DNA of 45,434 nt from contig JAWXBP010000359.1 in assembly GCA_034440135.1 (NCBI GenBank), positions 1 through 45,434 of the forward strand, given 5' to 3'. Each line of letters opens with the position of its first letter. Position 1 is the first letter of the stretch. The stretch comes from Planctomycetia bacterium. Its GTDB lineage: Bacteria; Planctomycetota; Planctomycetia; Pirellulales; JALHLM01. This document shows positions 137 through 45,434 of this stretch, in pieces. Made by a program: the position numbers and the translations under genes. The notes beneath the pieces were generated by a model. The model did not search any database. It was not told where the DNA came from and saw only the letters and a program-made list of their open reading frames with translations.

Positions 137-365
137 GTCGCAGCGAATGCATCAGCCCCGGAGGGGCGGCAGATAATAGCCAGGCGTGCCAACGCCTGGA
201 AACGTTCGCCAACAAATCAAATGAGCCCCAACGGGGCGACACTGGTCTCCACAGTGTCGCCCCGTTGGGGCTCAAACCTTATTGCGTCCGTTTCCAGGGG
301 TTGCGCTGCGCTTCACCCCTGGCTATTGTCTGTCGCCCCTCCGGGGCTGATGCAATCGCTGCGAC
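137..365. repeat. Nested inverted-repeat locus (AGCCCC/GGGGCG family), copy 1
   Basis: An outer pair of 47-nt arms (137-183 and 319-365) is inverted with three mismatches. Each arm contains AGCCCCGGAGGGGCG followed by an AATAGCCAG tail. Inside lies a perfect 23-bp inverted repeat (222-244 and 252-274) separated by only 7 nt. Between them are CCAGGCG/CGCCTGG and CCAGGGG/CCCCTGG hairpins. The same order of parts recurs at about 44245-44457. This looks like a REP/BIME-like or miniature mobile palindromic element. No coding potential is apparent. Confidence 0.9.
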
Positions 366-3062: not shown

Positions 3063-4303
3063 GCCTAAATGATGCGGAAATCGTAATCGTCGGCGGCGGC
3101 GCGGTCGGCTGCGCGATGGCCTACGCACTCACGCATGCCGGGCAGCGCGACGTGCTGCTCATTGAAAAGCAGTCTGGGCTGGGCGAAGTGACGACGGCGC
3201 AAGGCGCCGGGCTCTGCGGCCAGGTGCGCGATACGGCGGAGCGCACGCGATTGGCGATGGTCTCCGCAAAAACCTTCGCACAATTGCAGCGCGACGCCGA
3301 CGTCCGACCCGACTGGCACGCCGTGGGAAGCATCCGCATCGCGGAATCCGCCGCGAACGCCGCACGCTTTCGCGAACTGAAGACAGTGGCCGATGAGGCC
3401 AAACTCGAAACCGAATTACTCGATCGCGCGGAAGCGTCGAAGCTTTGGCCGGCGATCGACTTTCGCCGCGCTGAAGCAATCCTCTGGTGCCCGACCGACG
3501 GCTACATGCGTCCCAAGGACGTGGTGAACACGTATCGCCATCACGCTGAAAAGTCCGGCGCAAAGTTCGCAACCGACGTTGCGGTCGAAGGCTTCGACTT
3601 GGTGAATGGACGCATCGACGGCGTCCGCACAAATCAAGGGCGCATCGCCTGCAAGACGGTCATCAATGCCGCCGGCGCGCATGCCTATCACATTGCCAAG
3701 CTCGCGGGGATTGAATTGCCGATCGTGCCCGTGCGTCACGAGTACTTCATTTCGGTGCCGATGCCCGGCCTGCGACCTGATCTGCCCTGCTTCCGCGTGC
3801 CGGACACAGGACTTTACGGCCGCTGCGAACACGATCGACTGCTGCTCGGCGGCTGGGAAACGAAAGCCCTGCGCACCGATCCGCGCTCCTACGATTTGCC
3901 CGGTGCGCCGCCGCCAGTTGAACCGGACTGGCTGGTGCTCAAGCAGTTCGCGCAGGACTTCACCGGACTGTTGCCGGGCACTTCGGAAGTGAAAATGGAC
4001 CGCGTCGGACGCGGTTGGCCGACATTCACGCCCGACGGCCGCTTCATCCTCGGCCCAAGTTGCCGGGTGCCAGGCTTTGTCATGGCCGGCGGCTGCAACG
4101 CCCACGGCATCTCCGGCTCGCCCGGCCTGGGGCAACTGCTGGTCGAGGCGATGTTCGAAAAACAGCCATCGGAATATGTGAGCAGCCTGAGCCCGGATCG
4201 CTTCACGGAAACCAAGTGGGACTGGCAAACGGCGGGCGTCGCCGCCCAACGCGTGTACGAGACGTACTACGGGGCAAGGGAATCCTCCGCGGCAGGCGTG
4301 TGA
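3059..4303 (+). CDS. FAD-dependent amine oxidoreductase (DAO family; probable aminophosphonate oxidase)
   Basis: This 414-residue protein is of the glycine/sarcosine oxidase (DAO) type. It has an N-terminal Rossmann FAD motif, VGGGAVG at 11-17, with an acidic residue ending the second strand (LLIEK, E36). A C-terminal FTPDGRFILG and GGCNAHGISGSPGLG segment is typical of the family's flavin-binding end. The start is TTG, sharing TTGA with the stop of the Rieske gene, which implies translational coupling. FAD oxidases of this class are known in bacterial phosphonate clusters, where they convert N-methyl-2-aminoethylphosphonate, and sometimes the unmethylated compound, to phosphonoacetaldehyde. 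With PhnA and PhnY downstream and no PhnW present, that role fits here. Plain sarcosine or dimethylglycine oxidation is the alternative. Confidence 0.85.
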   Translation: MSLNDAEIVIVGGGAVGCAMAYALTHAGQRDVLLIEKQSGLGEVTTAQGAGLCGQVRDTAERTRLAMVSAKTFAQLQRDADVRPDWHAVGSIRIAESAANAARFRELKTVADEAKLETELLDRAEASKLWPAIDFRRAEAILWCPTDGYMRPKDVVNTYRHHAEKSGAKFATDVAVEGFDLVNGRIDGVRTNQGRIACKTVINAAGAHAYHIAKLAGIELPIVPVRHEYFISVPMPGLRPDLPCFRVPDTGLYGRCEHDRLLLGGWETKALRTDPRSYDLPGAPPPVEPDWLVLKQFAQDFTGLLPGTSEVKMDRVGRGWPTFTPDGRFILGPSCRVPGFVMAGGCNAHGISGSPGLGQLLVEAMFEKQPSEYVSSLSPDRFTETKWDWQTAGVAAQRVYETYYGARESSAAGV

Positions 4304-4389
4304 GAGGATTTCACCTCGGAGCAACATTCAATCATTCGTCAATCGAGCTTAATTCGACATTCGGATTTCGAGCTTCGACATCCCCGCTC

Positions 4390-4424
4390 CCCCTCCGTGT
4401 CCTCCGTGACTCCGTGGTGAAAAA
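4390..4424. repeat. Intergenic CTCCGTG-type repeat, copy 1
   Basis: A degenerate run of CCTCCGTG units ends in CTCCGTGGTGAAA. Similar runs occur at about 25607-25640 and 26829-26875. It sits in the 153-nt gap between the flavoenzyme and phnA, the only sizeable gap in the cluster, and could interrupt or modulate co-transcription. No gene is present. Confidence 0.7.
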
Positions 4425-4456: not shown

Positions 4457-5704
4457 GTGGCTGAAACGATTGCTTCCGTTCCCTTTGCGGTGAATGGGCG
4501 GAACTATGCTCCGCCTGGGCGGCCAGTCGTCGTGATCTGCATCGACGGTTGTGGGGACGAGTACCTCTCCACGTCGATCGCCCATGGAAAGATGCCGCAT
4601 GTGGCGCGGCTGGCGCGGGATGGTTACCGCGGGTTCGTGCGCGGGGCGTTGCCGTCGTTTACGAATGTGAACAACGCCGCGATCTGCACCGGGTTGCCTC
4701 CCTCGGGCACCGGCATCGCCGGCAATTACTTTCTCGACCCGGAAACCGGCGAGGAAGTGATGATGAACTCGTCGAAGTACCTCCGCGCTCCGACAATTCT
4801 GGCCGCCGCCGCGAACGCCGGTCGCAAAGTGGCGATGGTCACCGCGAAAGAAAAGCTGCGCGACATTCTCTCGCACAAAATGCGGGGCATCGCCTTCTCC
4901 TCGGAAAAGGCAAATCAGGCCAAGCTCGAAACGCATGGCATCGACGACGTGGAACAACTCGTCGGTGCGCCGACGCCCGAGATCTACAGCGGCGAGGCCA
5001 GTCTGTACGTGCTCCGCGCCGGCGTGGCGTTGATCGCCGCCGAGCGATCAGATTTCCTTTACTTGTCGCTCACCGACTACATGCAGCATAAGTACGCGCC
5101 GGAAGCCCGCGAGTCGCTCGAGTTCTACGCCGGCATCGACGCTCAGATTGGTCACATGTTGGAACTCGGCGCAATTGTCGGTGCCACGGCCGATCACGGC
5201 ATGAACGCCAAGACCGACGCCGACGGCAAGCCGAACGTGATCTTCCTAGAGTCCGCGCTGAACAAGCAATTCGGTGGCGGCTACCGCGTAGTCTGCCCGA
5301 TCACCGATCCGTATGTCGTACATCACGGCGCGCTCGGCAGCGCGGTCGTCGTCCATCTGTCGCATGGCGCCGATCCCGCTCCGGTCGAGCGCTGGCTCTG
5401 GGAACAACCGGGCGTCACCGAGGTCTACGATCGCCGCTTAGCGGCGCTCAAGTTGGAACTGCCGGCCGATCGAATCGGCGATTTCTTCGTGATGAGCGCT
5501 CGCGACGTCGTGCTAGGCCGCACGCCGGAACATCACGATCTGTCGGCGCTCAAGGCGCAGCTCCGCTCGCACGGCGGGCGCTACGAGGAGCTTGTCCCGA
5601 TGGTACTCTCCGCGCCGCTCAAGCCCGAGTATCGCGCGAAAGCCGCCGGCGATCCGCGCAATTTCGATATTTTTGACTTCACCTGCAACGGAATCGAAGG
5701 ATGA
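4457..5704 (+). CDS. phnA: Phosphonoacetate hydrolase
   Basis: PhnA hydrolyses the C-P bond of phosphonoacetate to acetate and phosphate, using two metal ions in an alkaline-phosphatase-superfamily fold. The 415-residue protein shows the expected residues. D30 lies in VVVICIDGCGDEY and the nucleophile T69 in LPSFTNVNNA. D207 and H211 lie in SLTDYMQH, D246 and H247 in TADHGMN, and H372 in SHGGRYEE. These sit four to five positions or fewer from their counterparts in the characterised Sinorhizobium meliloti enzyme, as I recall its numbering. The start is GTG at 4457, preceded by an AGAAGAGG ribosome-binding site about 6 nt upstream. The stop overlaps the phnY ATG (ATGA). A generic type I phosphodiesterase/nucleotide pyrophosphatase is the alternative, but the phnY neighbour makes PhnA much more likely. 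Confidence 0.93.
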   Translation: MAETIASVPFAVNGRNYAPPGRPVVVICIDGCGDEYLSTSIAHGKMPHVARLARDGYRGFVRGALPSFTNVNNAAICTGLPPSGTGIAGNYFLDPETGEEVMMNSSKYLRAPTILAAAANAGRKVAMVTAKEKLRDILSHKMRGIAFSSEKANQAKLETHGIDDVEQLVGAPTPEIYSGEASLYVLRAGVALIAAERSDFLYLSLTDYMQHKYAPEARESLEFYAGIDAQIGHMLELGAIVGATADHGMNAKTDADGKPNVIFLESALNKQFGGGYRVVCPITDPYVVHHGALGSAVVVHLSHGADPAPVERWLWEQPGVTEVYDRRLAALKLELPADRIGDFFVMSARDVVLGRTPEHHDLSALKAQLRSHGGRYEELVPMVLSAPLKPEYRAKAAGDPRNFDIFDFTCNGIEG

Positions 5705-7137
5705 CGGAACAAACGCTCGAGGCCTTGGATCTGCCCAGTTACATTGCCGGCCAACCGTACGCGAAGGGCCGCAAGCTGGAAGTGCGTTATCCCTACACGG
5801 ACGAAGTCATCGGCACAGTGGCCACGATCGGGCCGCACGAGTTGGAAACCGCCATCTCGAAAACGCTCCAAGGCGGCGAGCCGCTCAGCCGTTACCAGCG
5901 CTACGAGATCCTCGACCGCGCGCGGCGGATGTTGCTGGAGCGCCGTGACGAATTCGCCGACCTGATCCGCCTCGAATCCGGGCTTTGCATGCGTGAGACG
6001 ACCTACGAAGTCGGCCGCGCGCAGGACGTGTTGCAGTTCGCTTCGATGGAGGCCCTCCGCGACGACGGGCAGATTTTTTCCTGCGACGTCTCACCGCAAG
6101 GGAAGAATCGCAAGATCTTTACGCTCCGTGAACCGCTGCGCTTGGTCGCCGCCATCACGCCGTTCAATCACCCGCTGAATCAAGTCGCGCACAAGCTGGC
6201 GCCGGCGATCGCGGCCGGCGCGCCGATGTTGCTCAAGCCTTCGGAAAAGACGCCGCTCACGGCAATTCGCTTCGCGGAACTGCTCTACGAGGCTGGCCTG
6301 CCCGGCTGGATGCTGAGCGTCTTCGTCGGCGGCATCGAGGATGTGATTGAACCGCTGATTTGCGACGAGCGCGTCGAACTGGTCACCTTCACCGGCAGCG
6401 TCAAGATTGGCAAACGAATCGCCTCGATCGCCGGCTACAAGAAGCTCTGCCTGGAATTGGGCGGCAACTCCCCGTTGATCGTGCTCGACGACGCCGACCT
6501 GGACTTAGCCGTCACGCTCGGCGCCGAGGGCAGCTACCGTAATTCCGGCCAGCGTTGCACAGCCGTCAAGCGGTTGCTGATTCACGAAAAACTCGCCGAC
6601 GAATTCACGGAACGATTCGTTGCCAAGACCAAGGAATACCTCTGCGGCGACCCGGCCGATCCGGAAACCCGCGTGGGCACCGTGATCGACGAACCGGCCG
6701 CGAAGCTGCTAGAAGAACGCATCGACAAAGCGGTCGCGCAAGGCGCGAAGGTCCTCGCGGGCGGCGCGCGGCGCGGCGCCCAATTGGAACCGACCGTCAT
6801 CGCCGACGTGCCGCGTAACGCTGAGATGGTGGTGCAGGAATCGTTCGGGCCGCTCTCGCCGATTCTGCGCATTCGCGATCTGGACGACGCGATTCAACTC
6901 GCCAACGGCACCGCGTATGGCCTCTCTACCGGCGTGGTGACGAACAACATGGCCGCCGCGCTCGAATGCGTCAAACGCATCCGCACCGGCACCGTGAACA
7001 TCAATCAGATCCCGGGCTTCCGCATCGAGTCGTCCCCCTTTGGCGGCGTCAAAGACTCCGGGCTCGGTGTCAAAGAAGGGGTCATCGAGGCGATCAAGTA
7101 CATGACGTACGTGAAGACGTTCTCACTGCCTTGGTAG
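5701..7137 (+). CDS. phnY: Phosphonoacetaldehyde dehydrogenase
   Basis: This 478-residue NAD(P)-dependent aldehyde dehydrogenase is predicted to oxidise phosphonoacetaldehyde to phosphonoacetate, the PhnA substrate. Catalytic features are C286 in NSGQRCTAV, the general base E252 in LELGGN, FTGS at 230-233, the oxyanion N156 in FNHP, and K179 in LLKPSEKTP. R106, H157 and R285 occupy positions that resemble the phosphonate-binding residues reported for S. meliloti PhnY; I match these from memory. The ATG overlaps the phnA stop by 4 nt, so the two are almost certainly co-translated. The cluster ends here, facing a convergent minus-strand gene 8 nt away. Assignment as a generic succinate-semialdehyde-type dehydrogenase is possible but less likely next to phnA. 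Confidence 0.92.
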   Translation: MTEQTLEALDLPSYIAGQPYAKGRKLEVRYPYTDEVIGTVATIGPHELETAISKTLQGGEPLSRYQRYEILDRARRMLLERRDEFADLIRLESGLCMRETTYEVGRAQDVLQFASMEALRDDGQIFSCDVSPQGKNRKIFTLREPLRLVAAITPFNHPLNQVAHKLAPAIAAGAPMLLKPSEKTPLTAIRFAELLYEAGLPGWMLSVFVGGIEDVIEPLICDERVELVTFTGSVKIGKRIASIAGYKKLCLELGGNSPLIVLDDADLDLAVTLGAEGSYRNSGQRCTAVKRLLIHEKLADEFTERFVAKTKEYLCGDPADPETRVGTVIDEPAAKLLEERIDKAVAQGAKVLAGGARRGAQLEPTVIADVPRNAEMVVQESFGPLSPILRIRDLDDAIQLANGTAYGLSTGVVTNNMAAALECVKRIRTGTVNINQIPGFRIESSPFGGVKDSGLGVKEGVIEAIKYMTYVKTFSLPW

Positions 7138-9379: not shown

Positions 9380-10591
9380 ATGAATGAGCTCCATCTGCCG
9401 GACGACGACTCTATCCAGCAACTGGGCATTTCCACCCTCGCGGTGCATGCCGGCGAGTCGCACTTGAAGCCCGGAAACGCCATCACCGATCCCATTTTCT
9501 GCGCCTCGACGTACACCTTTCCCGACACGCAGTCGGTGATCGATTTCATCGAGCAGAAACTGCCGCGGGAAGAGTACGGCCGCTACGGCAACCCCAGCGA
9601 GAAGATCGTCGAGCGCAAACTCGCGGCCCTCGACGGCGGCGAAGATGCGCTGCTCTATGCGTCCGGGATGGCGGCCATCGTCGGCCTGCTGATGACCAAG
9701 CTCAACGCCGGCGACGAGGTGATTTTCTTTGACGAGTGTTACCATCGCAGCCGGGAGTTCTGCACCAAGCACCTGGCGCGGTTCGGCGTCGTCACGCGCC
9801 AGGTGAAAGCCTGCGACTACGAAGCGATGGAGGCCGCCATCACGCCTGCCACCAAGTTACTAGTCAGCGAATCGCCGACGAACCCGCACCTGAGCGTCGT
9901 CGATTTGGAACGCTTCGCCGAGATCGGTCGCCGGTGCGGCGTCAAGACGTTGATCGACGCCACGCTGGGCACGCCCTACAACTTGCGTCCAATCGCCGCA
10001 GGCGTGGACTACGTGTTGCACTCCGCGACGAAGTATCTCGCCGGGCACAACGATTTGCTCGCGGGCGTGCTCGTCGGCGGCAAAGAACAGTTGGAGCCGG
10101 TCCGCAAACTGCGCGGCATCATGGGCGCGATCAATTCCCCGCACAACATCTACTTGTTGCTCCGCGGCCTGAAAACCTTCGAACTACGGATGGAACGCCA
10201 CAACCAGAACGGACTCGCGGTGGCGCAGTTTCTCGCGAACCACCCGCGGATCGAACGCGTCTTCTACCCGGGCCTGCCTACGCATCCGTATCACGAAGTG
10301 GCGAAGCGGACGATGCGCGGCTTTGGCGGCCTCGTGACTTTCTTGGTCAAGGACGCCGATTGGCGCGCCACGGCCCGCGTGGTCGACGCGGCCCGCATCC
10401 CGCGCATCGGGCCGAGCTTGGGCGGCGTGGAATCGCTGATCGAACAGCCGCTGGTAATGAGCTACTACGAATGCAGCGTCGAAGACCGCCAACGCTTCGG
10501 CATCCCCGACAACATGATCCGCCTGGCCTGTGGCATCGAGAATACGGACGACTTGATCGCGGATTTAAAGCAAGCGCTGGATCGGGTTTGA
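9380..10591 (+). CDS. Cys/Met metabolism PLP-dependent enzyme (cystathionine gamma-synthase/lyase-like)
   Basis: This 403-residue fold-type I PLP enzyme belongs to the transsulfuration family. The PLP lysine is K218 in LHSATKYLAGHND. SGMAA at 95-99 binds the phosphate, and YGRYGNPS at 66-73 supplies the neighbouring-subunit Tyr/Arg. The usual VDNTFATP segment reads LIDATLGTP, and the YGGTYR segment reads CYHRSREF, so this paralogue differs at substrate-facing positions from the second enzyme downstream. The ATG is preceded by GGAAGG. It likely acts in methionine/cysteine interconversion. Synthase, lyase and O-acylhomoserine sulfhydrylase cannot be told apart by eye. A nested palindrome separates it from its paralogue. 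Confidence 0.88.
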   Translation: MNELHLPDDDSIQQLGISTLAVHAGESHLKPGNAITDPIFCASTYTFPDTQSVIDFIEQKLPREEYGRYGNPSEKIVERKLAALDGGEDALLYASGMAAIVGLLMTKLNAGDEVIFFDECYHRSREFCTKHLARFGVVTRQVKACDYEAMEAAITPATKLLVSESPTNPHLSVVDLERFAEIGRRCGVKTLIDATLGTPYNLRPIAAGVDYVLHSATKYLAGHNDLLAGVLVGGKEQLEPVRKLRGIMGAINSPHNIYLLLRGLKTFELRMERHNQNGLAVAQFLANHPRIERVFYPGLPTHPYHEVAKRTMRGFGGLVTFLVKDADWRATARVVDAARIPRIGPSLGGVESLIEQPLVMSYYECSVEDRQRFGIPDNMIRLACGIENTDDLIADLKQALDRV

Positions 10592-10608
10592 AGTTTTTGG
10601 ACAAGTTT

Positions 10609-10810
10609 GAAGTTTTCAGTGTTCAGTTTTCAGTGTTTCTTAACGAAGTGTTGATCGCTAATTCCATAAACGAAACAACGACACCAGCCCGACGCGCCAG
10701 CGAGGGGGAGTAATCGTCGAACGTCGCGCGGCGTTTACTCCCCCTCGCTGGCGCGTCGGGCTGGTGTACGCTTGGTGCGCTCTCACTGAAAACTGAACAC
10801 TGAAAACTTC
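10609..10810. repeat. Nested palindromic element with two perfect arm pairs
   Basis: The inner arms of 33 nt (10681-10713 and 10735-10767) are perfectly complementary around a 21-nt loop. They contain CCCGACGCGCCAGCGAGG. The outer arms of 27 nt (10609-10635 and 10784-10810) are also perfect and are made of GTTTTCAGTGTTCAG-type sequence. Together they form a roughly 200-bp structure between two transsulfuration genes. The 60 perfectly paired positions imply recent insertion, gene conversion or selection on structure. No ORF is contained. Confidence 0.95.
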
Positions 10811-10839
10811 TCACTTCCCCGAAAACTTCAAACTCTCCC

Positions 10840-25090: not shown

Positions 25091-25663
25091 GCAGAGCAGC
25101 GTGGCGCCGCAACTGCGACGTTCTGCAAGTCCGACTCTCGCGGTCTTTTTAATCTCCGTCACGACTGCGTGAGTGCGAACTTGCCTGAAAAACAGGGGCC
25201 TTCACGTTGCTTTCGCGGGGAATATCGCGTGTTTCACAAAATCCCCATTTCGCCCCTAGTCGAGCCGCCAGGCAATCGATAACCCACCTCTCCCGCCACA
25301 TGACTGCCTGACGCCGGTCGGACCAGACGCCTGGGCATCGTGTGATCGTGACCGTTGGAACCGCCTTCACGATAGCTGACACGACCGCCAATCAGCGCGC
25401 GTATCGACAGCAGAAATGACAACGGCCCGGTTGCGGGGCGCCGACCTTACGCTGCGTCGTGCTGTTCGCGCTCGCCAGCGGCACGATCCTGGAATCCACG
25501 CACATGGGTTCGCCAACATTCAAACGCGTCACTTCGTCCAGCATTATTCCCTCCAGTCCTTCACGCTCCTGGCTCCAATTCCTCCGACGCACCACTCCCT
25601 CCACTCCTCTCCGTGTTCTCCGTGCCTCCGTGGTGAAATCCTCCCTCAACCAAGAGCATCAAC
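25091..25663. other. Intergenic region with CTCCGTG-type repeat, copy 2
   Basis: These roughly 570 nt lie between convergent genes. At about 25607-25640 they hold CTCTCCGTGTTCTCCGTG followed by CCTCCGTGGTGAAATCC, a relative of copies at 4390 and 26829. No protein-coding region is convincing in the rest. Its weak short frames lack start signals or recognisable motifs. Confidence 0.6.
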
Positions 25664-26593: not shown

Positions 26594-26964
26594 TGGCCAC
26601 CTCTCAGGTAGAAATCTAGATGTAAAGCACGAAGTCGCGCCCAATCCTATCGCCACACGCGCCCCCAGCATACCGCCCAATTGAAGTAGGCGATCTGCAA
26701 CCAGCCAATCAAGTTCCGTGCCCTAACAAGTTCGTCCCCAGCGCAGCACCTACCTATCACGTCTCCTACATCCTTGCTCCACTTTTCGTGACTTTCGCGC
26801 CTTTCGTGGTTCCCTTTCTCCTTCCCTCCTCTCCGCGTCCTCCGTGCCTCCGTGCCTCAGTGGTGAATCCTCCGCCCAAACCGCCGGAGCTTGAAAAACC
26901 CCCGTTTTCCGGTCTAATCATTCCCAAATTCATCGCCAAACCCACGTTGGAGCTACGCGTCGCC
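26594..26964. other. Intergenic region with CTCCGTG-type repeat, copy 3
   Basis: These 371 nt lie between divergent genes. At 26829-26875 they hold CCTCCTCTCCGCGTCC and a run of CCTCCGTG units ending in CAGTGGTGAATCC. An in-frame extension of xylA runs through the repeat, but it has no family resemblance and is untranslated in all likelihood. Promoters for both genes should be here. Confidence 0.65.
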
Positions 26965-35748: not shown

Positions 35749-35896
35749 AACCGCGAAACACGCGAAATAACGCGAAAAAGGAACGGAAGGGAAGTTCGGA
35801 ATTAGTAACTCGACAATGTCCCGTAAGCTTGGTTGAAACAAATTCAACCATTGTCCTCTCTCTTCTCTTTCGCGCCCTTTCGCGTGTTTCGCGGTT
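35749..35896. repeat. Inverted repeat AACCGCGAAACACGCGAAA
   Basis: Perfect 19-nt arms (35749-35767 and 35878-35896) face each other across about 110 nt. Extra GCGAAA units lie just inside both arms. The sequence is upstream of the PDZ gene and not coding. It resembles the CTCCGTG repeats in layout but not in sequence. Confidence 0.88.
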
Positions 35897-42016: not shown

Positions 42017-42949
42017 ATGGACCATGCCGCCTACGACCTGCGCGACGCTCAGCAGCGTTGTTTCAGTTTCGTCGGCTTCGCGTTCCTGTTGAGCTGGACC
42101 GTTTGGGCCGGACTCTGGGCGCCGGGCGTGCATCGCCTGCCGGTTGTGCCCACGGCGATCATGATCGTCGGCCTTTGGGGCCCGGCACTGGCGACGAAAC
42201 TGACGCACCTGCTGTTTCGTTCACGGCGCGCTGACGAGACGATGGAACCGGAGCCAGAACCAGCACCGCCGCGCGCTTATTGCTTGGCGATTCTGATCAC
42301 GGTGGCGTGCTGCACGGCAGCGCTCGGATGGTCGTACGTCATGGGAGGCTGCCAAATGGTCTGGAGTTGGCAGCCGACGGGCGAGTCACTGCTGTTCATC
42401 GGCGGTACAAATTATCTGCCGATCGAGTTTTACGATGTCTTGAACTACATCGGGTTGGCGGTCCAAACAATCGTCGCGGAACTGTTCTTCGCGTTCGCGG
42501 CCATGCTAATGGTCGCCGCTTCTGAGATTGGTTTCCGTGGATTGCTGCTGCCGACCGTGGTCCGCTTGGGCTTTCGCCCGTGGCTGGCGGCCGTGATGGT
42601 CGGAGCAATCTGGGGGATTTGGCTCTTCCCGCTCGCGTGGCGTGGCAACCTGACCGGGTTCTATCCGGGAGAACCCGTGCGCGGCATGGTCGTCTTGCTG
42701 GCCGCCGCGACCGCCTGGGGTGCGTTGCTGGGCTGGGTTTATTTGCGTTACTTGCGGCTTGGTCCAACCATCGCGGCCGCCACGTTCGTGGCCTGGTGGA
42801 CGTGGTCGTTGCCAAGTTTTAGCACGGCCTACGATCCCCTCCGATACGCCGATCCCCGCAGCTTCTCGTGCGCGGCAATCGTGGCCACCATAGCGGCGGT
42901 GTTCTGGTATTTCGCACCGCCGACGCCGGTGCGCCCGGCGGCCGATTGA
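42017..42949 (+). CDS. CPBP-like membrane protein, catalytic residues lost
   Basis: A 310-residue protein with about eight transmembrane segments in the CPBP (CAAX protease/bacteriocin-processing, Abi) fold. The first motif, normally EExxxR, reads SEIGFR (S169, E170, R174), so the first Glu is gone. The second motif, normally ending in His (WGLWH), reads WGIWLF, with Leu at 203. The third His motif also looks absent (AAATFVAWW). It is thus likely a non-proteolytic family member, or one with altered chemistry. It is co-directional with the kinase and with the HEAT protein downstream. Frameshift is not indicated since the frame is intact. Confidence 0.82.
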   Translation: MDHAAYDLRDAQQRCFSFVGFAFLLSWTVWAGLWAPGVHRLPVVPTAIMIVGLWGPALATKLTHLLFRSRRADETMEPEPEPAPPRAYCLAILITVACCTAALGWSYVMGGCQMVWSWQPTGESLLFIGGTNYLPIEFYDVLNYIGLAVQTIVAELFFAFAAMLMVAASEIGFRGLLLPTVVRLGFRPWLAAVMVGAIWGIWLFPLAWRGNLTGFYPGEPVRGMVVLLAAATAWGALLGWVYLRYLRLGPTIAAATFVAWWTWSLPSFSTAYDPLRYADPRSFSCAAIVATIAAVFWYFAPPTPVRPAAD

Positions 42950-43020
42950 TCTTGAGCCGCCCTGGCGCAATGGGGAGAATTCCGCCTCGCTGCGGGGGCG
43001 GCACTCAGGTTCATGCGGTC

Positions 43021-44232
43021 ATGCGATTCTCACAGTACATGCGCTATCGCCCAGGCTGGCGCGCGATGACTTCCGCCGCGACGGTTTCCGGGATCGCCGT
43101 CGGCGGCTGGTATTTGTGGACCAGCCCGCACGTCATGGATCGTTGGGTCCATTCCCAAATCGTCGGCCTGCCCGACGACGAGTTGGCGCCCTGGATGTCC
43201 GGGCTGCTCGCGCGCGACGGCACGGCCGGCATCGCGCTCGTGGTGGATGATTTAACGTCGATCCGTCAGCCCGTGCGCCGCGCTGCGAATCAGGCGCTGC
43301 GCAATGAAATCGACCGCTGGTCGACGGCCAACACGAACACCGCACCCTTACGCGCGGTTGCGATGGCCGAAGCAATTCGCAACTTACCGGACGCGACCAG
43401 GCACAGCGCCGGCGCTGAATTGGCCGCGCGAATCAAATTTTGGGCGGACCGTGCCGATTGCCCCGCCGCGACGCGCGGACGCATCGCTCTGGCGTTGAAA
43501 GAGGTTGCGCCGCCGCCGGTTGTTCGCGATGTTGCGGTCGTGCGAGCGATCAAAGACGTGTCTTCGGTAGTCGTCCAATCGAATCAAACGCCCGCGACAC
43601 AATCGCCTATCGAAGCTTCGACGAAGTTTCCGATGTCTTTGCCAGACGCAGTTGCCCTGGCGCCGCAAGCGGTCGGCAAACAATCGGGCGTCAGCGCTCC
43701 GCGTTTGCTCGTGCCACAAGGCGAACGTGCGGTGCTCGATGCTGACCACGATGCTGATTGGGATCTCTCGCCCCGGCCAGATGAAGCGCAAGCTGAACAG
43801 ACAGCGCCCAGCGTGAATGTGCCGTTAGCGCCTTGGCCAGCTTCCGACGCAGATCGCTCCGAAAACCGAAAAGCCTCCACGCGAGAATTAATCGTCGCGC
43901 TGCATGGCGAGCGTCCTGAAGAAATTGCCGCGGAACTGCGAGCGCGCGGCTTCGACGACGAGGCCATCGAACTGGCCACGCATTTGAGCGCCCGAGATCG
44001 CAAGGAACGTCTGCAATGGACGTCGTCGTTGCCGCGGATCAGCAACATCGACGCCAAGGCGTGGCTGACCTGGATGACGGAAGACCCGGACCCCGAAGTT
44101 CGCCGCACCGCGGTGACGCTGTTGGGCACGTCGATCGATGAAGCGACGTTGTCGCTGTTCCGAAAGCTCGCCGCCCGCGATCCGGATCAATCGGTGCGCC
44201 GCCTGGCGGCCGAGTTGGTGCGGCGGCAGTAG
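43021..44232 (+). CDS. HEAT-repeat protein with N-terminal membrane anchor, hypothetical
   Basis: A protein of about 403 residues from ATG 43021. The frame is open back to 42868 and overlaps the CPBP-like gene, but that extension has no conserved feature. A hydrophobic segment (AATVSGIAVGGWYLW) lies near the N terminus, likely a membrane anchor. Residues 50-160 contain HEAT-like helices (GIALVVDDLTSIRQPVRRAA). A Pro/Ala-rich linker follows, then a C-terminal HEAT pair (DPDPEVRRTAVTLLGTS and DPDQSVRRLAAELVRRQ). Helical repeat scaffolds of this type are common in planctomycetes. The function is unknown. Confidence 0.75.
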   Translation: MRFSQYMRYRPGWRAMTSAATVSGIAVGGWYLWTSPHVMDRWVHSQIVGLPDDELAPWMSGLLARDGTAGIALVVDDLTSIRQPVRRAANQALRNEIDRWSTANTNTAPLRAVAMAEAIRNLPDATRHSAGAELAARIKFWADRADCPAATRGRIALALKEVAPPPVVRDVAVVRAIKDVSSVVVQSNQTPATQSPIEASTKFPMSLPDAVALAPQAVGKQSGVSAPRLLVPQGERAVLDADHDADWDLSPRPDEAQAEQTAPSVNVPLAPWPASDADRSENRKASTRELIVALHGERPEEIAAELRARGFDDEAIELATHLSARDRKERLQWTSSLPRISNIDAKAWLTWMTEDPDPEVRRTAVTLLGTSIDEATLSLFRKLAARDPDQSVRRLAAELVRRQ

Positions 44233-44244
44233 CGGCAACAGTAT

Positions 44245-44457
44245 TCAGCCCCAACGGGGCGATAGATAATAGCCAGCGGTGCAAACCGCTGGAACCACGG
44301 TCAAATCAAAAAGTCTTTAAGCCCCATAGGGGCGCCCCAATTGAACGGATGACGTGACCAAGGGAGTGTCGCCCCGTTGGGGCTCAATTCAACTCTTTTG
44401 CGCGATTTCCAGGGGTTGGCACCCCTGACTATTACCTGTCGCCCCTATCGGGGCTGT
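44245..44457. repeat. Nested inverted-repeat locus (AGCCCC/GGGGCG family), copy 2
   Basis: The locus has the same order of parts as at 137-365. An outer pair carries CAGCCCC...GGGGCGA with AATAGCCAG or its reverse complement near the inner end. An inner GTGTCGCCCCGTTGGGGCT faces another AGCCCC/GGGGCG unit, with CCAGGGG/CCCCTG and AGCGGT/ACCGCT hairpins between. Loop sequences differ from copy 1 and pairing is less perfect. It fills most of the 228-nt gap between two genes with convergent ends. Confidence 0.85.
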
Positions 44458-44460
44458 GGC

Positions 44461-45434
44461 TTAGCGGCGCAGGACATTGTCGGTCAGCACGTCAATGCGT
44501 TCGGCCGTCAGTTGTTGCTTACTGTACGTGTGGTTGTACGCCGCCACGCCGGTAATGCCGACTTGCTTGCCGACGTAGCTCCGCAGATTCATGCCGGGTG
44601 TCGGCGTGACGAAGTACTTCACCTGGCGGTTTTCGTCGACCAACGCGAACGACGGCGCGCCGGGACGGCGCGACATCACTTGCGTCAAACGGCCCACGCC
44701 GACAAAGCCCAGTGAACGCGCCGGCGCGTCGTCCGCTGGTGGTTCACGTGGCGATGTTTCTGGCTGCGCGGCGAGTTCTGCCGGAGCAACGTCGTCGCGC
44801 GGCGCGATCGGACGCGATCGGTTCATGCCCGAGGCTTTGACATCGGCGTGTCCCTGGGCGATGTCCTCGAACCGCGCGATCTTCCGTAACAACAGCCGGC
44901 TGCGACCGCGCTCGACGGCCGTGGCGCTGCGTTCCAACAACTTTTCGGCGCGGCGGTTGATGTTGTCGAAGTCCCAATGGCTCGAATCTTGCGCCACCAT
45001 CTGCGAGAGCGCCAGTTCGATCGCGTCCAACTCGGCGCGCAGGTTGCCGGAGCGCGTCGGCGGCGCTGGCGCTGGTTGATCCCGTTTCGCGGTGCGGACC
45101 GGCGGAGTTTCTTCCGCCGCGACCGGTTCGCGCGGCGCACGGGCAGCCGGCTTGGTGCGGTTCGATGCTTCCCAGCCTTCGTCGCCAGGTTCGTTCGTTT
45201 TTGTGCGCTGACGGCGATTCGCGTCGATTTGATAAGTCGCCAATTGCGCGCCGCGCGGTTCGTCGGACTCGGCGTCGTCGGCCAATTCGGTCACGTCGGC
45301 AACTGCCGGCATGGCGTCTTCTGCTTCATCCAGCGGGCGCTCTTCGCGCGTCACGGGCAGCCGCCGCGGGCGCGGCGCTTCGCTGACGCCGTCGACGCGG
45401 CTTTCGTGAATCCAGCGGAACTCCCCGGCCGGCG
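44461..45434 (-). CDS. Protein with SH3-type GEFRW motif and C-terminal OB-like region (partial)
   Basis: At least 323 residues. The frame is open through the right window edge, so the N terminus is missing; an internal GTG at 45354 is unlikely to be the true start. The edge reads PAGEFRWIHES, a motif I associate with planctomycete SH3-like envelope proteins. A Pro/Glu/Ala-rich disordered middle follows, then a helical segment (LRAELDAIELALSQMVAQ, NINRRAEKLLERSATAVERG). A C-terminal strand-rich domain (SLGFVGVGRLTQVMSRRPG, FALVDENRQVKYFVTP, YVGKQVGITG) ends at DNVLRR and has an OB-fold look. Function unknown. It may link envelope and glycan. Confidence 0.72.
   Translation of the reverse strand, partial: PAGEFRWIHESRVDGVSEAPRPRRLPVTREERPLDEAEDAMPAVADVTELADDAESDEPRGAQLATYQIDANRRQRTKTNEPGDEGWEASNRTKPAARAPREPVAAEETPPVRTAKRDQPAPAPPTRSGNLRAELDAIELALSQMVAQDSSHWDFDNINRRAEKLLERSATAVERGRSRLLLRKIARFEDIAQGHADVKASGMNRSRPIAPRDDVAPAELAAQPETSPREPPADDAPARSLGFVGVGRLTQVMSRRPGAPSFALVDENRQVKYFVTPTPGMNLRSYVGKQVGITGVAAYNHTYSKQQLTAERIDVLTDNVLRR

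Follow-up and report, generated by a model that had tools for sequence, protein, structure and literature searches.

Paired three-hairpin elements of a Planctomycetia genome contain the RF01687 motif and are probably served in trans by an IS200-like Y1 transposase

The window analyzed here, 45,434 nucleotides in length, is the whole of contig C359 of a Planctomycetia genome (G000; 7.29 Mb in 534 contigs). It contains two copies of a symmetric element of ∼200 bp, at 154 to 348 and 44247 to 44455, each organized as hairpins A, B, and C, a spacer, and hairpins C, B, and A. The ends of the first element are sharp, falling between A and GCCCC on the left and between GGGGC and T on the right. The left arms of both elements pass the gathering score (37 bits) of the Rfam family RF01687, and the right arms are below it. 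The features are as follows, with the basis for each.

137..153 (left) and 349..365 (right), extra outer inverted repeat of element 1, 17 nt on each side; inverted-repeat search
154..348, element 1, an inverted pair of A-B-C hairpin units (REPIN-like); RF01687 match at 154-199 (minus strand, 51.4 bits) and partial match at 318-348 (plus strand), inverted repeats, alignment with 21 other pairs
155..167, minus strand, element 1 hairpin A, left arm; GCCCC/GGGGC stem, sequence and alignment
180..199, minus strand, element 1 hairpin B, left arm, with TAG at the 5' foot on the plus strand; RF01687 match and covariation
225..237, minus strand, element 1 hairpin C, left arm (A-like, inner); alignment of 44 half-elements
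259..271, plus strand, element 1 hairpin C, right arm, forming the 23-bp palindrome with left C; alignment
294..322, plus strand, element 1 hairpin B, right arm, loop enlarged; sequence and alignment
335..347, plus strand, element 1 hairpin A, right arm; sequence and the partial RF01687 match at 318-348
42868..44232, plus strand, gene 5' of element 2, ending 14 nt before it; ortholog 80% identical in the sister species (G001)
44247..44455, element 2, between two convergent genes; RF01687 match at 44247-44292 (minus strand, 41.8 bits)
44273..44292, minus strand, element 2 hairpin B, left arm; RF01687 match and alignment
44321..44333, minus strand, element 2 hairpin C, left arm; alignment
44371..44383, plus strand, element 2 hairpin C, right arm; alignment
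44409..44428, plus strand, element 2 hairpin B, right arm; alignment
44441..44454, plus strand, element 2 hairpin A, right arm; alignment
44461..45354, minus strand, convergent open reading frame with its stop 5 nt from element 2; syntenic in G001

The first-pass annotation of this DNA had described the first locus as a nested palindrome with long outer arms around a perfect 23-bp core, repeated at both ends of the window. An inverted-repeat search confirms the outer arms (137 to 188 with 314 to 365; 52 nt, 92% complementary), which recur at the other end of the window. The inner palindrome is perfect in element 1 (222 to 244 with 252 to 274; 7-nt loop) but imperfect in element 2, and the outermost repeat, at 137 to 153 and 349 to 365, was not seen flanking the other aligned pairs and is specific to the element 1 copy. 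The locus is present at both window ends, but this position is incidental because the window is a whole contig, and other contigs carry copies at many positions. Folded as single-stranded DNA, region 137 to 365 has a z-score of -20.4 and region 44245 to 44457 a z-score of -6.9, and none of 200 dinucleotide shuffles folds as well in either case. The window has no tRNA or tmRNA, and such an origin for the elements was rejected.

Other repeats are also present. Positions 1 to 126 are a hexamer array, AGGAGT and then AGGAGC, and this tandem repeat probably caused the assembly to break here, at the end of the contig. Another palindromic family, unrelated to the elements and with ACACCAGCCCGACGCGCCAGCGAGGGGGAG-like arms, is represented at 10586 to 10833, where it is nested in another inverted repeat (GTTTGAAGTTTTCAGTG...), and at 3171 to 3330 of locus L033; this latter copy has about 30 matching places in the sister genome G001, many of them on both strands. 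Inverted repeats of CGCGAAA words (AACCGCGAAA..CGCGAAA), at 35749 to 35896 of the window and at about 5260 of L014, are perhaps another recurrent intergenic family of the genus, and there are three copies of a CTCCGTGTCCTCCGTG..GGTGAA repeat (4382 to 4421, 25598 to 25637, and 26820 to 26867).

A genome-wide covariance search, as proposed with the first-pass annotation, identifies at least 78 RF01687 matches in G000 at an E value of ≤0.001, so there are more than two copies; 57 of those listed are over the family cut-off, and the total is a lower bound because 150 of 1,820 first-look candidates were scored. Among the 78 listed matches, 44 form 22 inverted (minus-plus) pairs with outer ends 186 to 349 nt apart where measured, and one pair, on contig C167, is tandem. 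With genes called by codon usage, the paired copies are intergenic in all 22 cases examined, 10 between convergent genes, 8 between tandem genes, 1 between divergent genes, and 3 in contexts that are unclassifiable. A bias of this kind toward convergent and tandem 3' ends has been published for REPs (PMC3733652).

The architecture is apparent in an alignment of 44 half-elements, taken from 20 paired loci of G000 and the two window copies. Each half is ordered as hairpin C (GTGTCGCCCCGTTGGGGCTC), a variable spacer of ∼20 nt, hairpin B (CCAGGGG, loop, CCCCTGG), the linker CTATTATCTGNC, hairpin A (GCCCC, loop, GGGGC), and a final T, with the two halves of an element facing each other over a short variable spacer. 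Hairpins A and C are alike, and the A-plus-B half of the unit corresponds to RF01687, named Acido-Lenti-1 and annotated as an sRNA. The outer ends are sharp throughout and the flanks are unrelated among copies, with a weak, post hoc lean to G (20/44) and A (19/44) in the first two bases outside the element in G000. Near-identical copies in G023 and G058 define no exact boundaries, since homology continues past the outer hairpin. Hairpin B carries nTAG or nCAG at the foot when read on the strand opposite to RF01687 (CTA after GG in 108 of 139 alignment rows, CTG in 10), and the canonical REP foot, 5' GT[AG]G, is absent there. The left and right units of an element are barely more alike than permuted pairs (similarity 0.819 versus 0.801, reached by 256 of 10,000 permutations; n = 22 elements, using a fixed 46-nt cut that is imperfect for units with 4-nt loops), so that an arm-to-arm helix of 47 nt is weakly supported as the functional unit and a set of three local hairpins in each arm looks more likely.

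The first-pass annotation had also suggested looking for a Y1 transposase, and there are five Y1_Tnp matches in G000. The top-scoring match (102 bits) is a gene of contig C231 (∼5391 to 5843, minus strand; 150 aa) that is flanked by inverted copies of the element's hairpins, with an A/C pair on one side, where hairpin B is degenerate, and C, B, A, and extra A-like hairpins on the other. The element looks like the transposase locus minus the gene. The predicted protein has the motifs DHVH, WQ, and YIENQAEHH; the HUH, WQ, and Y---Q--HH columns are invariant in 23 of 23 aligned relatives, and all three motifs, with the HUH pattern relaxed, are present in 75 of 80 named homologues, which are mostly from planctomycetes. 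By the motifs DH[IV]H, WQ, and Y---Q--HH, it classifies as an IS200-like TnpA-Y1 of subclass 1.2, and it shares with the published description of that subclass a length of about 150 aa, a conserved C-terminal segment of ∼30 residues, and low copy number (PMC6006769). It passes the NCBIfam IS200/IS605 model (73.7 bits, cut-off 55) and fails the RAYT model NF047646 (32.3 bits, cut-off 80), and the structures closest to its AlphaFold2 model (pLDDT, 90.7) are ISDra2 and IS608, with the REP-bound RAYT 4er8 at rank 30. No TnpB was seen by eye among the open reading frames of the C231 locus. A decaying copy of the gene is present at locus L076 in a Pyrinomonadaceae genome, with an in-frame stop at codon 34 and HVN in place of HVH, and its flanking units are still there.

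Units flank this type of gene widely. RF01687 lies within 1.5 kb (E ≤ 0.05) of 21 of the 28 gene loci in the host's order, and our own model, R1, for which six of these loci served as part of the input, detects units at 24, for a union of 26. The 80 named homologues span about nine phylum-level groups, as judged from record titles. Counting the top 150 R1 hits alone, at least 52 of their loci have a unit no more than 600 nt from the gene, 32 of them on both sides; 137 of these hits fall within that distance and 13 elsewhere. The innermost units among them point outward in 68 of 84 cases (left, 32 minus versus 8 plus; right, 36 plus versus 8 minus). At an E value of ≤0.01, a unit is near the gene in about 67 of the 80 loci, as read by eye, and several R1-negative loci are flanked on each side by matched hairpins of another kind (for example, L096, L110, L129, and L143). 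A sequence-light descriptor gives 129 hits in the 91.6 kb near the genes versus 9 in the other 356 kb and 2 in shuffled sequence. At four loci (L092, L067, L087, and L089), tandem arrays of units about 68 to 107 nt apart, resembling BIME arrays, are beside the transposase gene.

Other Y1 types were considered as rival mobilizers. Around 26 Y1 genes of other types, in genomes holding RF01687, there are no units at an E value of ≤0.001, the best being 0.01, and this includes the loci in genomes that have RF01687 and lack a good gene of the subclass. Six other-type loci from the other searches are also without units; of these, L063 duplicates L226, a gene already among the 26.

Gene and repeat also co-occur. 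At a gene threshold of E < 1e-18, a gap chosen after viewing the list, 26 of 57 genomes of the host's order have both, 2 have the gene only, 5 have RF01687 only, and 24 have neither (Fisher P = 3.7e-9); at a looser E ≤ 1e-3 the counts are 28, 6, 3, and 20, respectively. The corresponding counts for 61 Bryobacterales genomes are 5, 1, 2, and 53 (P = 2e-5; E < 1e-10, likewise set after viewing the list), and two of the five genes in the "both" class are fragments, as expected of decaying loci. The exceptions are of two kinds. Five of the 57 genomes of the order have RF01687 without a convincing gene, G019 and G024 being rich in such orphans; G024 is a single contig of 6.6 Mb with 20 RF01687 matches, no subclass 1.2 gene, and 15 Y1_Tnp matches without flanking units, so that either the gene has been lost or another enzyme serves the repeats. 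The gene is present without RF01687 in G041, G045, and G120, and in two of eight gene-bearing genomes searched (Geotalea and Kaistella) an RF01687 match is absent.

The pairing of gene and repeat is genome specific, with exceptions. Dispersed units compared with the units flanking the gene in their own genome give a mean of 0.743 versus 0.645 when permuted, a value reached by none of 20,000 permutations (15 genomes, 114 units). The own genome ranks first for 73 of the 114 dispersed units, or for 29 of 70 without G000, whose 43 first ranks and one second are removed. Dispersed units mismatch the flanking units compared in 5 of the 15 genomes (G002, G018, G021, G046, and G054), several of which hold more than one gene match, with the flanking units compared being part of those present.

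Comparison of G000 with its closest relative, G001, a sister species of the same genus, illustrates turnover of these elements. Element 2 is absent from the orthologous site, where both convergent flanking genes are present (83 to 86% nucleotide identity) with few bases between them; at two other syntenic sites G001 lacks, respectively, a second element (316 nt versus 31 nt) and the transposase locus (about 805 nt versus 222 nt). One further element was left out of the comparison, one of its flanks being unmatched. These differences could reflect a gain in one lineage or a loss from the other, and divergence at the empty sites is too great for exact junctions to be placed. One Bryobacterales genome carries a second copy of the whole gene-bearing locus, differently surrounded and 93% identical over 710 bp. 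The match stops at the outer edge of the right unit and runs about 66 nt beyond the left unit, and the locus seems to have been copied.

The duplicated Bryobacterales locus, the empty G001 site of the transposase locus, and the protein's score over the IS200/IS605 cut-off all favor an ordinary IS200/IS605 insertion sequence in which the complete locus transposes and the dispersed units are its MITE derivatives. Such a system would share its mechanism with the REPIN-like reading preferred here, and the two are not exclusive. The present system shares the fold and catalytic motifs of IS608 and ISDra2, but the three-hairpin arms, the single gene against at least 78 unit matches in G000, and the lack of a TnpB seen by eye are different. 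Typical IS200 ends are described as small subterminal hairpins, with near-identical copies within a genome (PMC6006769), whereas identity to the query often varies widely among the matches of one genome here. We regard an ordinary insertion sequence as the less probable account, although it is the closest competitor.

Acido-Lenti-1 could alternatively be a structured small RNA or an mRNA 3'-end element that the transposase has spread or adjoins by chance. The published, curated description is of a probable RNA from Acidobacteria and Lentisphaerae (PMC2864571), the copies are at gene 3' ends, a position in which an RNA hairpin might protect messages or terminate transcription, and the stems strongly covary. 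In 126 distinct units aligned by fitting to the model, 98.7% of pairs are standard, with 284 double-sided change cells versus 60.6 ± 10.3 in shuffles, and in an unfitted alignment of 29 gap-free units, 99.5% are standard over all helices, with 40 double-sided changes versus 6.3; arms that fail to covary, which the first-pass annotation saw as counting against a mobile or selected structure, are thus not what is found. However, DNA hairpins equally predict covariation, and stem B is nearly all Watson-Crick (1,733 cells versus 11 G.T and 6 A.C in 253 of 274 units, all model-preselected), such that G.U pairs are about 0.6% of cells, a near-absence suggestive of DNA hairpins rather than RNA. Inverted pairs, outward-facing units flanking one transposase subclass across many phyla, and copies missing at syntenic sites of the sister species also argue against a primary RNA role, which we consider improbable. 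Least probable is that these are host-selected palindromes, such as terminators or gyrase/IHF sites, spread by selection or gene conversion with no role for the transposase, which would accord with the convergent and tandem 3' ends but does not predict the flanking, co-occurrence, or genome-specific matching with one transposase subclass, and no T-run was seen by eye after the outer GGGGCT in the printed copies.

The window loci are thus very probably REPIN-like, nonautonomous mobile DNA elements served in trans by the IS200-like subclass 1.2 Y1 transposase, with RF01687 as its DNA recognition unit. Copy number, architecture, gene flanking, co-occurrence, genome-specific matching (with its exceptions), and presence or absence in the sister species are the observations, drawn from genome sequences, that point this way. 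This agrees with the REP/BIME-like mobile structure proposed at first pass and refines it, in that Rfam already lists the unit, as a supposed sRNA, and in that the transposase belongs to the IS200-like subclass 1.2 and is not a canonical RAYT. Binding, cleavage, and transposition by the enzyme are what we infer by analogy, with any RNA role secondary. The substrates of HUH/Y1 transposases with this fold are hairpins of single-stranded DNA, and base pairing with a guide at the hairpin foot determines where the enzyme cuts, CT sites being selected through A3G4 of GTAG (PMC8266576). Modeled on IS608/ISDra2 and Escherichia coli TnpA-REP, the transposase would bind hairpin B when it folds in single-stranded DNA, as on the lagging strand, and would cut nearby with the conserved AG at that hairpin's foot as its guide. 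The element would then be moved or copied, without target duplication, into intergenic DNA, mostly by gene 3' ends.

The closest known systems are REPINs or BIMEs with their RAYTs (TnpA-REP), with which these elements share a high intergenic copy number, inverted pairing of units, a Y1 gene lying between copies of the repeat's own hairpins, a genome-specific match of gene to repeat, and a convergent and tandem 3'-end bias. They differ in having three hairpins per arm and an nTAG or nCAG foot of hairpin B instead of GT[AG]G, and the transposase is under the RAYT model cut-off and over that for IS200. Subclass 1.2 is entered as REP "no," and as mostly from Cyanobacteria and Bacteroidetes, in the 2018 classification (PMC6006769); here, in contrast, most homologues (at least 52 of 80) have hairpin units beside them, and the predominant phyla are Planctomycetota, Verrucomicrobiota, and Acidobacteriota. 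RF01687 as described also differs, as it is here a DNA unit tied to a transposase and found in many more phyla. An encyclopedia note places Acido-Lenti-1 near group II introns. A Group II intron D1-D4-4 match (109 bits) is beside another Y1 gene of the genome, at 1134 to 1273 of L002.

Class 3 TnpA-Y1 genes and the TIRYTs/TIRtrons of Acidobacteria are also similar, in that Y1 genes of Acidobacteria or Planctomycetes are flanked by atypical or long inverted structures, some of them multicopy (PMC6006769; PMC3733652). Class 3 differs in its NHVH and YVxxEQ motifs and its CnGA foot (PMC6006769). Di Nocera and colleagues reported the long inverted repeats around tyrosine transposases of Acidobacteria (PMC3733652), and some TIRYT genes may be the same system seen in part. 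In the openly available literature searched, no paper was found that by title or abstract ties Acido-Lenti-1 or RF01687 to a transposase. As far as these searches show, the kind of system is known, as REPINs with RAYTs, and the variant is not previously described: a three-hairpin unit, a supposedly REP-less subclass, and an Rfam sRNA family that is its repeat.

A broader proposal, which we favor with some reserve, is that RF01687 is the recognition unit of an unrecognized REPtron class, in which subclass 1.2 Y1 transposases, thought to be REP-less, mobilize three-hairpin REPINs in about nine phylum-level groups, and in which the gene-bearing locus is still able to move whole. Such a class would be a living intermediate between IS200 insertion sequences and domesticated RAYTs. 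RF01687 hits have been reported as noncoding RNAs with regulatory roles, for example beside Tannerella forsythia protease genes, in a 2026 paper (PMC13298647), and if the unit is a transposase substrate, RF01687 noncoding RNA annotations should be re-read. It would also supply a cognate repeat for a transposase subclass described as REP-less, and the diverse natural enzyme-repeat pairs would bear on hairpin choice by Y1 enzymes and on the path from insertion sequence to RAYT.
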